Shown here: positions 2,673-7,827 of the stretch, piece by piece
Layout of the letters: each line of letters starts with the position of its first letter
How positions within the stretch are numbered: position 1 is the first letter of the stretch
Source of the DNA: Acidobacteriota bacterium
GTDB taxonomy: Bacteria > Acidobacteriota > JAAYUB01
Reading direction: 5' to 3'
NCBI GenBank assembly: GCA_016935015.1
Contig: JAFGRT010000219.1
Span: 1 to 64,000, forward strand
Length of the DNA: 64,000 nt
The notes under the pieces: generated by a model
What the model saw: only the letters and a program-made list of their open reading frames with translations
What the model was told of the DNA's origin: nothing
Databases searched by the model: none
Made by a program: the position numbers and the translations under genes

Positions 2673-4316
2673 ATGAGCAGAAAGTTTTATCCTGTGTTGT
2701 GCATTATCCTGGTCTGCCTGGGGCTGGTACATTCGTTGGCTGTGGACCCCAACCGGGAACGCATGACCCTTCTGGTCAAACCGGCGGTCGTGTTCGTTTA
2801 TTCCGACATCCAGGTCGGGGTGACTTTGCACACCACGGACGGCCCCATTGAATTCGATCCGGTCCCCATGAACAGCATGGGGTCGGGTTTCATCGTCAAT
2901 TCGGACGGGTACATCGTTACCAACGGGCATGTGGTGGAGCGCTACCACAGCAAGGATAACAACAAGCTGAAACAGGAAGCCGTCGTCTTCATCCTGGAGC
3001 AGTATATTTTCCCTGAATTTGCCCGTAAAAATGGGCGACCGCCCACTCAGGAGGAAATGGTTCAAATCTACCAGAACCTGCTCCCTAACTTTTCTTTCAA
3101 GATCGCCAAACAGCTCTTTGTTTTTCTGTCCAACTGGGAAAAATACCCCGCTGAGATCAAGCAGTTCAGCCCGCCCATCACGTTCATGTCGGGGAAAACG
3201 GAAGGCATCGTCAGCTACGAGGAGGAGGAGGCCGGTAAGGATATCGCCATTCTCAAAATCGAGAAAGGCGATCTACCCACGGTGACGCTGGGTGATTCGG
3301 ATGACGTCCGGCTCCAGGAACCGGCGTTTCCGGCCGGCTATCCCGGGGTAGTGACCGAGCACAATTATCTCAGCTCGTCCACGATGCTGGAATCATCCTT
3401 TACCTCCGGACATGTGTCCAGTCTGAAAGTGGATGTCAAGGGCACGCCCGTCATCCAGTTCGACGCGTCGGTCACCTGGGGCAACTCCGGCGGTCCGGTG
3501 TTCAATGATCGGGGCGAGGTCATCGGTATTGCCACGTTCATCAGTCTCAAGTCCTCCGGCCAGGGAGCCATGCCCATCCAGGGTTTCAATTTTGCCGTGC
3601 CCATCAACACCGCCAAGGAATTCATCCGTTCAGCCGGCGTCGTGCCCAACAGCGGACATTTCAACAATTTGTGGCGGGATGCCCTGGATTTGTATTTTGA
3701 CGAGGATTACGAAGCGCTGGTCACCAAGTGCGACGAGATTCTGCGGTTGTATCCCAATCAGCCGGATGTCCGGCGCATCCAGGTCAAGGCGCAGAAGGAG
3801 CTGCTGACCAATCCGCCCTCCGTCCTCAAAAAAATCGGTCGTTACTGGTGGATCCTGCTGATTGCCGCTATCGTCGTCCTGGGTCTGATCCTCGCCGTTG
3901 TCATGGTAGGCAAGGCCGGCCGCGGCAAGGCGGCCCCGCCGCAACGGGCGGCCGGGGGTGATCTCAAGGCGACAACGGTGGATGTCCATGCTTCCCGACA
4001 GCGGGTGGGAAGCTTCGGTCGTCTGGTTTGTGAAAAGGGACCGATACAGGGCAAGACCTGGGAAGTGCCCCAGACCGGCCTGAGTATCGGCCGGGATCCA
4101 TCACAAAACAATGTGGTAGTGCCCGATGATCATGTGTCCAAAGTGCATGCGATTGTGACGCCGACGTCCCAGGGATTGATGATCGAGGACAAAAATTCCA
4201 CCAACGGCACGTTTATCAACGAGGTCGGTGCCCAGAGTATCCGCCAGCAGGTTGTCAAGAGTGGGGATCGAATTATCCTGGGTAGCAAACAGGCGGCTAT
4301 TTTCCGCATCGAATAA
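2673..4316 (+). CDS. Exported trypsin-like (S1C/HtrA-type) serine protease with transmembrane segment and C-terminal FHA domain
   Basis: The 547-residue protein starts with a signal sequence (1-23). A trypsin-like domain follows with H86 in TNGHVV, D190 in GKDIAIL and S272 in WGNSGGP, so the triad is intact. There are 104 residues between H86 and D190, much more than in DegP-type proteases, including a charged helical-looking insert. No PDZ domain is evident; residues 325-380 look helical. A hydrophobic helix at 391-412 and a linker with KATTVD (432-437) lead to an FHA domain at about 447-545 with SIGRD, S489-x-x-H492 and NSTNGTF. The likely topology is protease outside and FHA inside the cytoplasm. 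It heads a block with a second FHA protein and a membrane Ser/Thr kinase, so the FHA probably reads that kinase's phosphorylation. The substrate is unknown. Confidence 0.88.
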   Translation: MSRKFYPVLCIILVCLGLVHSLAVDPNRERMTLLVKPAVVFVYSDIQVGVTLHTTDGPIEFDPVPMNSMGSGFIVNSDGYIVTNGHVVERYHSKDNNKLKQEAVVFILEQYIFPEFARKNGRPPTQEEMVQIYQNLLPNFSFKIAKQLFVFLSNWEKYPAEIKQFSPPITFMSGKTEGIVSYEEEEAGKDIAILKIEKGDLPTVTLGDSDDVRLQEPAFPAGYPGVVTEHNYLSSSTMLESSFTSGHVSSLKVDVKGTPVIQFDASVTWGNSGGPVFNDRGEVIGIATFISLKSSGQGAMPIQGFNFAVPINTAKEFIRSAGVVPNSGHFNNLWRDALDLYFDEDYEALVTKCDEILRLYPNQPDVRRIQVKAQKELLTNPPSVLKKIGRYWWILLIAAIVVLGLILAVVMVGKAGRGKAAPPQRAAGGDLKATTVDVHASRQRVGSFGRLVCEKGPIQGKTWEVPQTGLSIGRDPSQNNVVVPDDHVSKVHAIVTPTSQGLMIEDKNSTNGTFINEVGAQSIRQQVVKSGDRIILGSKQAAIFRIE

Positions 4317-4345
4317 TATTCGGTTGAAGAAGGGATGTGACTCCC

Positions 4346-4939
4346 ATGACCAAATATTGCCCCAATGGTCATCCCATGGAAGACTGGATGACGGAGTGCC
4401 CGTTCTGTACCCGGGCCGGCGAGGGCGTGCGCAAGGTACTGGGCGATCAGACCGAAGCGGAAACCGCGGCCAAAACGGAGGCGGAGGCGATGGCGGGGCT
4501 GAAGGCGACGGTAGTGGACGGGTACACGGAATTCTACGAAACGCCCCTGAAAGCGACGGTAGTGGACGGCGTCGCTGTCAAGGCGACAAAGGTGATGGGC
4601 GCGGATGTTCCCGCGGGTCGAAAGCCCCGCCAGCAATTGCCCCTCATGGGCTGGCTGGTCATCATGAACGGTGACAGGAAGTGGCAGGATTTTCGCATCG
4701 ACACCGAGCGGCTGACCATCGGTCAGGGAGAGGAATGCGAAATCCGGATTCCGGACGATGCCGTCTCCACCCGTCACGCCAGTCTGCGCCGTGCCCCCGA
4801 GGGCCTTTTGCTGACGGATTTGGATTCCACGAACGGTACGTTCATCAACAACGATCCGGACAGGATTTCCCGGGTAGTGCTCAAGGATGAGGACCTGATC
4901 CGGGTGGGCACAACCTATTTAAAATTCCGCCGACTGTAA
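4346..4939 (+). CDS. Zinc-ribbon-like FHA-domain protein
   Basis: The 197-residue cytoplasmic protein has an N-terminal C5-x3-H9-x8-C18-x2-C21 pattern that looks like a zinc ribbon. A linker carries KATVVD twice (residues 53-58 and 69-74) and a variant KATKVM. An FHA domain (about 100-195) has LTIGQGEE, S141-x-x-H144 and DSTNGTF. T55 and T71 have Asp at +3, the spacing preferred by many FHA domains for phosphothreonine, so these are candidate kinase sites. This resembles the logic of GarA/OdhI, but the targets are unknown. A GTG at 4337 is in frame; ATG 4346 is preferred because the AAGAAGGG ribosome site lies 11 bases before it but only 2 bases before the GTG. The kinase gene starts 12 bases downstream. 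Confidence 0.88.
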   Translation: MTKYCPNGHPMEDWMTECPFCTRAGEGVRKVLGDQTEAETAAKTEAEAMAGLKATVVDGYTEFYETPLKATVVDGVAVKATKVMGADVPAGRKPRQQLPLMGWLVIMNGDRKWQDFRIDTERLTIGQGEECEIRIPDDAVSTRHASLRRAPEGLLLTDLDSTNGTFINNDPDRISRVVLKDEDLIRVGTTYLKFRRL

Positions 4940-4951
4940 TGGGAGTCGACC

Positions 4952-7000
4952 ATGATCGGACAAGTGATCGGTCAGTATCGCATCTTGGAGAAAATCGGCC
5001 AGGGCGGCATGGGTGAGGTCTACAAGGCCGTCGATGTCAACCTGGATCGGGTCGTGGCCATCAAGATGCTGTCCAAGGATCTTACCCAAGATGAGACCCT
5101 GATCCAACGTTTCCGCTCCGAGGCCAAGACTCAGGCACAGCTGAATCACCCCAATATCTGTACCCTCTACAGCCTCCTCAAACACCAGGACAACCTTTTT
5201 ATGGTCATGGAGTTCGTGGAAGGGCAAACCTTCGAGCAGCTGATCAAATCGCGCGGGCCACTCCCCTTTCAGGAGATCGTTCCGCTCTTTCAGCAGGCGC
5301 TGTTCGGGCTGAGTCGGGCCCATCGCATGGGCATCATCCACCGCGATATCAAGCCGGCCAATGTCATCGTCAACCGGGAAGGTGTGGTCAAAGTGATGGA
5401 TTTCGGCATCGCCCGCGTGGTGGGTGAGTCACGGCTGACCCGCACCGGACTGGCGGTGGGTACCTTGTTCTACATGCCGCCGGAACAAATTCAAGGCAAG
5501 GAGGTGGACTATCGCGCCGACATTTATGCCCTCGGACTGACCATTTACGAGCTGCTGACGGGCACACTGCCGTTCCGGGCCACCACGGAATTCGAAATCA
5601 TGCAGGCCCACGTCAAGGAAATTCCAAAGCCCCCCTCCAAGGTTTATCCTTACTTGCCCAAGGTATTCGACAAGGTCGTTCTGCGGGCGCTGGAAAAAGA
5701 CCCGGCCCGGCGATACCAGACTGTGGAGGAATTCTCCCAGGCACTGGGACAGGCCATGCAGGAAGCCATGCGAGCGGCACCCCAGACAACCCTGGGGCAG
5801 ACGGTGGCCACGCCCACCGCCGCCCCGCTCGGGCAGACGGTGGCCCAGACGACCATGGCTCCCGTGGTTATGCCGAGCCCGGGCTGGCTGGGATTGACCA
5901 AAAAGCAGCTGCTAATGATTGGCGGCAGTGTCTTCGGGGTGATCGCCATCGGTCTGATCATTATCCTGGGACTGGTTCTTTTCAGCGGCAAGAAAGACCT
6001 CCCATCCTCCGGTTCGACCCTTGCTGACGCCAGCTCCGTTACGAGTACGACCACCAGCGGCACGCCGTCGACGCCGGCACCGCGGGATGTCGTTGGACCG
6101 TCCAAATCCAAGGTGGATCTTGGCGGGAAAAATATCCCCGGGCTGGAAACCAAGAAGTCGGAACCTGAACCGCCATCATCCACCCGCACCCAACCGAAGG
6201 AATCCCGACCCAGTTCCAAGCCGGCCGGCGAGAAGCAGGTCGAGACTCCGTCCCCGCCGAAAAAGGAAGAGTCTGACCCCTGGGCGGAGGAACAAGGCAA
6301 GAGCGCCGATCCCGGCGGCGCCATTGTACTGCCGGGTGGCGGCGGCAGTCCGAGCGATCCGGCGACGGAACAGGTGCGGGAACTGGAGCGCCGGGCCCAG
6401 GCGGCCTTCAATCAGGGGAATTACGCGTTTCCGCAGAACGACTGCGCCTTCTACTACGTGGCGGAAATCCTGAAGCGGGATCCGGGGAATGCGACGGCCG
6501 CCAACCTGTTCCAACAGATGGTACCCCTGCTGGAATCGCAAATGAATACGCTGGTCAGCCGGGGCGATTATGCCGGGGCACGAAATCTGGTGGGCGCGGT
6601 GCTGACCTACTTTCCCAATGACCCTGACTTGCGTGAGGCTTACAATTCCTTGCAGGGGATGGAGGAACAGGCCGCTCAAACCGAGGAGGCCGAGACTTTC
6701 CTGGTGAGCCATGATCACACGGGCAGTTTCATGGGCTTCTGCGTGGGATACCTTCACATCTACCCGGACCGGTTGGTCTTCCAGGTCATCCAGACAAACG
6801 ACGGGCAGCAACATGGTTTCGATGTCAGTCGCGGGCAGATCAAGGAATTTGAAACCAACGTCTGGCCCATTGGCGGGTATTCCTGTTTTCATATTAAACT
6901 GCGGGACGGGCGTAATTTCAATTTTGCCTACATCGACCAGAACGGGACCAATATGGATCCGTCCATCGTGGTGGCGGCCTATGAAGACGCCGGAGAATAA
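4952..7000 (+). CDS. Transmembrane Ser/Thr protein kinase (PknB-type) with TPR-like and unknown C-terminal domain
   Basis: The 682-residue protein has a complete N-terminal kinase domain: glycine loop IGQGGMGEV (15-23), K38 in VAIK, H130-R131-D132, D150-F-G and the MPPEQ motif near 175-179. Thr-rich juxtamembrane repeats LGQTVA occur at 281-286 and 293-298. A membrane helix follows at about 320-345. A Ser/Pro/Lys-rich linker (350-470) leads to a helical TPR-like stretch (475-590) and a terminal domain of about 90 residues beginning FLVSHDHTGSFMGF that I do not recognise; it may be a PH-like beta fold. The catalytic part should be cytoplasmic and the tail extracytoplasmic, as in PknB-type receptors, but without PASTA domains. 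The two upstream FHA genes are the obvious first substrates. Confidence 0.93.
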   Translation: MIGQVIGQYRILEKIGQGGMGEVYKAVDVNLDRVVAIKMLSKDLTQDETLIQRFRSEAKTQAQLNHPNICTLYSLLKHQDNLFMVMEFVEGQTFEQLIKSRGPLPFQEIVPLFQQALFGLSRAHRMGIIHRDIKPANVIVNREGVVKVMDFGIARVVGESRLTRTGLAVGTLFYMPPEQIQGKEVDYRADIYALGLTIYELLTGTLPFRATTEFEIMQAHVKEIPKPPSKVYPYLPKVFDKVVLRALEKDPARRYQTVEEFSQALGQAMQEAMRAAPQTTLGQTVATPTAAPLGQTVAQTTMAPVVMPSPGWLGLTKKQLLMIGGSVFGVIAIGLIIILGLVLFSGKKDLPSSGSTLADASSVTSTTTSGTPSTPAPRDVVGPSKSKVDLGGKNIPGLETKKSEPEPPSSTRTQPKESRPSSKPAGEKQVETPSPPKKEESDPWAEEQGKSADPGGAIVLPGGGGSPSDPATEQVRELERRAQAAFNQGNYAFPQNDCAFYYVAEILKRDPGNATAANLFQQMVPLLESQMNTLVSRGDYAGARNLVGAVLTYFPNDPDLREAYNSLQGMEEQAAQTEEAETFLVSHDHTGSFMGFCVGYLHIYPDRLVFQVIQTNDGQQHGFDVSRGQIKEFETNVWPIGGYSCFHIKLRDGRNFNFAYIDQNGTNMDPSIVVAAYEDAGE

Positions 7001-7065
7001 AAAAGCGAACAACAAACGCGGGGATCTCCCGATAATTGAGATGAGTTCAAACAAGGAGAAATGAC

Positions 7066-7398
7066 ATGACCATTCAGAATGTAAATAATGTCAGCCAGAC
7101 TTTTTCACTGCAGGACATCTCCAACATTACCCAGCCGAAGCCCAGCGGCTGGAGCAAGTTCAAGAGCGTGCTGGGCGGCATCGCCGGCGCGGCCTCATCA
7201 TTTATTCCCGGGGCCGGGATTATCAGCGGTCTGCTGGGCGGCGGCGGAGTCGGCGGAACCGGCTCCAACCAGCAGTGGGAGTTGCTGCAGCAACAGTACC
7301 AGATCCAGCAGGAGACCCAGATGTTCAATATGATGACCAATGTCTCCAAGACCAAGCACGATGCGGCCATGTCGGCCATTCGGAACATGAAGGCGTAA
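7066..7398 (+). CDS. Small glycine-rich protein of unknown function
   Basis: This 110-residue protein starts at an ATG 7 bases after AAGGAG, 65 bases downstream of the kinase gene. It has a polar N-terminus (1-34), a hydrophobic Gly/Ala-rich segment (36-66, GGIAGAAS and IISGLLGGGG) and a Gln-rich amphipathic C-terminal helix ending VSKTKHDAAMSAIRNMKA. It has no cleavable signal peptide. The final helix resembles in pattern the C-terminal helix of type III secretion needle proteins (Ser/Lys, Lys-Asp, then Ile-x-Asn), but that is a visual similarity only. It may be an exported or membrane-active small protein. The function is unknown. Confidence 0.75.
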   Translation: MTIQNVNNVSQTFSLQDISNITQPKPSGWSKFKSVLGGIAGAASSFIPGAGIISGLLGGGGVGGTGSNQQWELLQQQYQIQQETQMFNMMTNVSKTKHDAAMSAIRNMKA

Positions 7399-7431
7399 AC
7401 ACGGCGAACCCTATTTTCGTATAGATGGCTC

Positions 7432-7827
7432 ATGAAGATTGATCCGAAGCACCATTCATTTCAAGTGCCCCCGGACCAGCCGCGAATCGACTCGGCGCCG
7501 GAAACCGACCGTTCCGCTCAAACCGCCGCTTTCTCGGAAAAGGTTCAAACCGGTACCGAAGGCGGGATGCAGGTGGAAGTCGATCCGCTGCAGTCCCGGT
7601 TGACCGAGATGATCCGGAACAAGAATCTGGATGATCCCAAGGAGAAGCTGGAAGTGAGCTTGCTGGTCATGCGCGAAACATTGCTGTCGGTATTCGGCGA
7701 GTCTTTTTTGCAGGGACTGGACATGGAAACCATGCTGGACACGTTTCGCGAGTTTGTGGAAAGCGATCCCTCGTTGCAGGAAATGTTCGACCACTTGCTC
7801 CATTCACTGGCCAATACATCCGAGTGA
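7432..7827 (+). CDS. Small acidic helical protein of unknown function
   Basis: This 131-residue protein starts 33 bases after the 110-residue gene and is probably in the same operon. Residues 1-45 look disordered and contain FSEKV; residues 50-128 look all-helical and acidic (LTEMIRNK, VSLLVMRETLLSVF, MFDHLLHSL). It has no signal peptide, membrane helix or motif that I recognise. The size and acidity would suit a partner or chaperone of the preceding small protein, but this rests on position alone. No clear ribosome site precedes the ATG. Confidence 0.7.
   Translation: MKIDPKHHSFQVPPDQPRIDSAPETDRSAQTAAFSEKVQTGTEGGMQVEVDPLQSRLTEMIRNKNLDDPKEKLEVSLLVMRETLLSVFGESFLQGLDMETMLDTFREFVESDPSLQEMFDHLLHSLANTSE

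Follow-up and report, generated by a model that had tools for sequence, protein, structure and literature searches.

Five open reading frames near the start of a contig from an Acidobacteriota genome (4.75 Mb, 237 contigs) raise the question of whether a membrane kinase, FHA domains and an exported protease form one signalling unit. They lie at positions 2673–7827 of the window, which is the whole 64,000-nt stretch of DNA that was analysed, and a first-pass annotation had read them as a unit in which the kinase may tune the protease across the membrane through FHA binding. This core idea was found to be well supported genomically for three of the five genes, and the mechanism is what we infer from them. 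With a probability of about 0.55, the locus is read here as an envelope signalling module of Acidobacteriota that joins kinase, phosphatase, FHA and protease and in which the protease is under phospho-control.

Gene layout and domain architecture

The five genes, announced as running in a single direction with short gaps, were verified in their coordinates, all on the forward strand and with successive gaps of 20, 12, 65 and 33 nt. The features are as follows.

2673–4316, +, protease-FHA gene, 547 aa; domain order: signal peptide (1–24), HtrA-like protease, TPR-like helices (326–380), TM helix (about 392–412), cytoplasmic linker, FHA
2880–3626, +, trypsin/HtrA-like protease domain (Pfam, PDB matches, alignment)
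2928–2930, 3240–3242, 3486–3488, +, catalytic residues H86, D190 and S272
3846–3908, +, predicted TM helix of the protease (hydropathy; kept in relatives)
3972–3983, +, TTVD motif T434–D437, candidate phospho-acceptor/FHA ligand directly before the FHA domain
4008–4313, +, cytoplasmic FHA domain of the protease, pThr-contact residues intact
4346–4939, +, NGH-zinc-ribbon FHA gene (ZR-FHA), 197 aa counted from ATG 4346; zinc ligands CPNGH...CPFC, FHA with GQ in place of GR
4508–4519, +, TVVD motif, copy 1, ZR-FHA linker
4556–4567, +, TVVD motif, copy 2, ZR-FHA linker
4952–7000, +, transmembrane Ser/Thr kinase gene, 682 aa
4976–5722, +, PknB-like kinase domain; T163 and T165 of its activation loop do not vary among relatives
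5909–5980, +, predicted TM helix of the kinase, residues about 320–343 (hydropathy; TM at the matching place in homologues)
6368–6682, +, extracytoplasmic TPR-like helical region (weak Pfam TPR, structure model)
6689–6997, +, extracytoplasmic PH/GRAM-like domain, termed KCT (model, Foldseek, homologues)
7066–7398, +, small gene s1, 110 aa, outside the module
7432–7827, +, small gene s2, 131 aa, outside the module

The description of the first gene product as an exported trypsin-like protease with a cytoplasmic FHA domain was borne out by Pfam matches to Trypsin_2 (5.5e-26) and FHA (5e-15), an N-terminal signal and one TM helix before the FHA domain. H86, D190 and S272 are all intact, and extra residues are inserted between the catalytic His and Asp. 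The protein shares the His/Asp/Ser triad with HtrA/Do-type proteases, but Pfam detected no PDZ domain at its C-terminus and it reached 102 bits against the degP_htrA_DO family model, for which the cut-off is 416. The pThr-contact residues of its FHA domain (GR, S..H, NG(T)) are kept in 22/22 homologues, the exceptions being one Arg for Thr and some Ser or Ala at the variable Thr before NGT. The linker between TM helix and FHA domain is of low complexity, yet T434 is invariant in an alignment of eight sequences (A1). The AlphaFold model of the protease (pLDDT 49) was too poor for use. A Yop-YscD_cpl match, which would place the protein in the YscD family, was rejected as a cross-match within the FHA domain (SctD model, 11.5 vs 86).

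The second gene product matches FHA in Pfam (6.6e-16), as annotated; its start is probably ATG 4346 rather than the GTG at 4337 assumed before, and the canonical Arg is lost while S..H and NGT are retained, so the full GR, S..H, NG(T) signature of an FHA phosphothreonine reader is absent from the window's protein. Even more contact residues are lost in the sister genus. Elsewhere, GS is found in lineage f9, and f25/f39 and one f6 protein retain an intact site. Judged from these residues, the ZR-FHA protein is probably degenerate in the window's family, and the expected FHA binding by the zinc-ribbon protein is not supported there.

The kinase matches Pkinase (4.8e-58) and weakly TPR, and its K38, HRD (130–132), DFG (150–152) and T163/T165 are intact. 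Its catalytic domain is followed by the TM helix and an outside tail, and the protease places its catalytic domain outside and its FHA domain inside, so the complementary topologies proposed for the pair were recovered. The TPR-like character of the tail stands as a weak match; overlooked was the PH/GRAM-like KCT, modelled as a seven-strand barrel with a C-helix (pLDDT 91). The best structural matches of KCT in Foldseek are PH domains, with small PH-like targets giving TMt 0.49–0.63; whole-query TM-scores of the tail are low (about 0.26–0.37) because the model has two domains. One KCT homologue in another genome has a weak Pfam GRAM match, and no solved structure matched the kinase tail by sequence.

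By profile search KCT was found in 18 of 297 genomes of the phylum. It is fused directly to a trypsin domain in two of them (G056 and G190), and TPR-KCT proteins with a signal-like N-terminus adjoin kinases in G164 and G014. These trypsin fusions and kinase-adjacent proteins tie KCT to proteases independently of the operon. Its role could be that of a sensor, a regulator of the protease or a substrate of it.

Direct fusions of KCT to a secreted trypsin-like domain lie at L113 8401–9477 and L114 9823–11184. At L035 10892–11821 (contig G009:C87), close to where the contig stops, a PurC-like gene adjoins, in opposite orientation, a kinase-tail gene that is truncated, and this contig may be a chimera.

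Conservation and linkage across Acidobacteriota

The relatives, whole genomes as well as named contigs, are Acidobacteriota MAGs. A search for related loci with the kinase tail as query led to four named MAGs of this phylum, and the same search with the protease gave no matches. A protease profile run over the 297 phylum genomes matched in 24. G001–G003, which belong to the window's family, have these genes arranged alike (protease, ZR-FHA, kinase), and the sister family (G004, G005) has protease followed by kinase and lacks ZR-FHA. In f9 the order is protease-FHA, ZR-FHA, PP2C and a TM kinase with a similar tail; in f6 (G297) it is ZR-FHA, a small FHA protein, PP2C, a TM kinase with TPR and tail, and protease-FHA; and in f51 protease-FHA stands between two kinases. 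The kinase stop and the protease start overlap by 4 nt on the same strand in both f6 (G297) and f51. Six genomes of f25/f39 carry protease-FHA, ZR-FHA, kinase-FHA and a TM kinase, in that order. In G164 (f32), an FHA-TM-trypsin protein precedes PP2C, a TM kinase and two TPR-KCT proteins; the domain order of this protease is permuted and its topology is the same, with FHA inside and protease outside. PP2C is linked only in f6, f9 and f32, and the window block has kinase and FHA genes without it.

Thus the gene-order check upheld the linkage of kinase, FHA and protease genes across several Acidobacteriota families and failed for the two small genes. Of 10 lineages with protease-FHA, 5 have a same-strand kinase within 6 kb of it, where 0.39 would be expected (P=1.2e-5) from per-genome kinase densities under the assumption of uniformly placed kinases and independent lineages. 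G164 was left out of this count because it had been found via the kinase tail. No kinase was found near protease-FHA in f11, f21, f69, f70 and f77. On the evidence of gene order, genes 1–3 are a conserved Acidobacteriota module, and a local linked kinase is not obligatory, five lineages carrying protease-FHA with no kinase linked to it.

The relationship among the kinases was examined in a tree of 55 kinase domains, in which ten kinases of f1 (the window's lineage), f2, f6, f51, f9 and f32 were taken as module kinases. These ten need 3 label changes compared with a shuffle mean of 9.4 (0/500 shuffles as low), a clustering that is partly expected from the close relatives among them. They fall, together with the two kinases that neighbour KCT in G014 and with four others, into a group of 16 rows whose fork has moderate support (88/92), and the remaining sampled kinases from the same genomes lie outside it. 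The kinases of f25/f39 are outside this group as well; therefore, that operon uses other, non-orthologous kinases.

A candidate phospho-site, natural losses and rival readings

In the proposed mechanism, the periplasmic tail of the kinase would sense an envelope condition, upon which the kinase would autophosphorylate at T163/T165 and phosphorylate the linkers of ZR-FHA and of the protease at T-x-V-[D/E] sites. PP2C, where it is linked, would reverse these modifications. The FHA domain of the protease would bind phosphothreonine either in cis or on another molecule, be it a neighbouring protease or the kinase, and this binding would alter clustering or docking of the protease, so that periplasmic proteolysis would be switched from inside. 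The ZR-FHA protein would serve as a soluble relay or scaffold; it is dispensable, being missing in the sister family. A more specific claim, made tentatively and at somewhat below even odds, is that of a widespread inside-out system in Acidobacteriota: a transmembrane Ser/Thr kinase would act as the switch of a periplasmic serine protease by phosphorylating a T-x-V-[D/E] site that the FHA domain of that protease recognises.

The motif T[VITM][VLI][DE] precedes the protease FHA domain in 12/12 genomes with a PH-tailed kinase and in 0/7 without one; the expression was picked post hoc with most sequences already seen, and the Fisher P of 0.005 (by lineage) is only descriptive. Partner FHA proteins share the spelling of their own lineage (TVVD in f1, TVLE in f6), and the motif occurs twice in the ZR-FHA linker. 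In f6, both the motif and the catalytic His are retained wherever the kinase tail is present (five genomes). By comparison, G049, a near-complete genome in 9 contigs, has no match to the kinase tail anywhere, only 138 nt separate its PP2C and protease genes, and its protease lacks the motif Thr and the catalytic His and Asp and retains an intact FHA domain. In G298 the protease has neither motif nor His and the kinase was not found; this MAG is 83% complete, and a contig end lies a short way upstream of its protease gene. Two lineages hence lack kinase, site and catalytic His together, and of these only G049 is a near-complete genome. Proteases of f25/f39 do not carry the T-x-V-[D/E] motif, and two counter-cases come from there: G068 has an intact protease without the TVE site, and in G229 the catalytic residues are lost and kinases remain. 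Pseudoproteases that have lost His and Asp and kept the FHA residues were recorded at L105 8945–10522 (G049) and L112 9114–10808 (G229).

The same observations can be read in the opposite direction, with the FHA domain bringing the protease to the kinase in its phosphorylated form, or to a partner, and the protease clipping the TPR-PH tail, which would end or tune the signal. Kinase tail and protease share a compartment, KCT-trypsin fusions exist in other genomes and the two genes overlap in f6 and f51, all of which would suit such outside-in control; but G049 keeps the protease gene with an intact FHA domain after the kinase is gone, and the T-x-V-[D/E] site sits in the linker of the protease itself and not in the kinase, so this reading is considered unlikely. 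It is rather improbable that the FHA domain does no more than hold the protease at complexes that several kinases phosphorylate, for example of the division or secretion machinery, with the neighbouring kinase as one among many and exerting no catalytic control. The five lineages with protease-FHA and no linked kinase, the 6–66 kinases carried by each genome and FHA domains that stay intact even where catalysis is lost would be in line with tethering, and set against it are the recurrent kinase-protease linkage, the relatedness of the module kinases to one another and a motif that tracks the presence of the kinase. That the genes are mere neighbours in a signalling-gene region, with no direct functional coupling, is very unlikely: kinases and FHA proteins are many in Acidobacteriota, but linkage is far above the density-based expectation and the permuted protease preserves the same topology.

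The least credible alternative, given next to no weight, is that the block serves to regulate a type III or type VI secretion system and that the small genes code for secreted parts of it. It draws on the Yop-YscD_cpl matches of the FHA domains, on an SctV/FlhA-family gene that lies between two SycD/LcrH-like TPR genes in the window's own genome (L121, G000:C184:1-11572) and suggests an injectisome-type T3SS, and on the C-terminal ~45 aa of s1. This tail recurs in longer proteins, one of them inside a T3SS cluster of G010 (L042) with SctJ and SycD/LcrH-like neighbours and another with a weak needle-family match on the tail; s1 itself matched no NCBIfam model. However, FHIPEP was not found in G001, G002 and G005, which carry the triad or the protease-kinase core, nor was the T6SS protein VipA in G000 (the window's own genome), G004 and G005, and an accessory role of the block in T3SS or T6SS is largely refuted by this distribution. 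Moreover, s1 and s2 form a conserved pair on other contigs of G001–G004, away from the triad, with s2 placed after s1 in each of the four relatives possessing s2, and they adjoin the kinase in the window's genome only. A five-gene order as one unit is excluded on this ground: genes 1–3 (2673–7000) are what is kept together of the annotated block, and the suggestion that the small proteins are cargo, partner or output was not sustained in any relative checked. A T3SS-related function of s1 and s2 may be entertained as a lead only. The s1 tail was also seen in a 220-aa protein elsewhere in the window's own genome (L043 10608–11270).

Relation to known systems and meaning for Acidobacteriota

Preferred over these alternatives is the proposed phospho-controlled protease module, for which the best reading from sequence comparison is a variant of kinase/PP2C/FHA modules with the FHA domain placed in a protease. 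PppA is the PP2C phosphatase of the T6SS threonine phosphorylation pathway, alongside PpkA and Fha, and the module resembles that trio in combining a TM Ser/Thr kinase, an FHA protein and, in some lineages, a PP2C. In Agrobacterium, phosphorylation of the membrane protein TssL at Thr14 requires PpkA, and the phosphothreonine at this position is bound by Fha (PMC3953482). Unlike that pathway, the module has its FHA domain in a transmembrane protease and a TPR-PH tail on its kinase, and it is present in genomes where the T6SS core gene VipA was not found, including the window's own. VipA genes do occur in the sister genus (G001, G002, G003). In the GarA/OdhI-PknG/PknB system of Actinobacteria, the phospho-acceptor Thr lies directly before the FHA domain, which is the docking site for the kinase (PMC8546545). 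The candidate Thr of the module protease is likewise in the segment preceding its FHA domain, but the motif is T-x-V-[D/E] and not ETTS, and the protein is a membrane protease and not a metabolic regulator.

The protease domain is related to HtrA/DegP/DegS, as indicated by PDB matches to DegP/HtrA, and differs from them by the missing PDZ domain, the His-Asp insertion, the cytoplasmic FHA domain and scores below the family cut-offs. With PknB/PASTA kinases of the Stk1 family the module kinase shares the kinase domain and the single-TM topology, but according to Pfam it has no extracellular PASTA repeats, its tail being TPR-PH, and against NF033483 it reaches 354 bits (cut-off 450) with the match confined to residues 7–284. 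A 2008 survey had already listed a protein with both FHA and trypsin domains, Bacteroides NP_811686.1 (FHA-FHA-Tryp), as a catalogue entry only and in a main text from which the word kinase is absent (PMC2605481). In the open literature searched, outside of which most subscription papers lie, no description was found of a kinase-FHA-protease module, of an output for Ser/Thr kinases of Acidobacteriota or of a periplasmic protease governed by phospho-reading in the cytoplasm.

One kinase family thereby gains a specific and testable set of partners, namely a protease, a phosphatase, an FHA relay and a motif, and the predicted mode of control is one in which phospho-reading in the cytoplasm would govern a protease in the periplasm. 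Genomes that naturally lack the kinase together with the site and the active site allow the direction of control to be tested. The module recurs across distant families of bacteria from soil and sludge, most of them uncultured, and the way in which kinase and protease travel together across these families suggests that extracytoplasmic proteolysis may be controlled by phosphorylation inside the cell.
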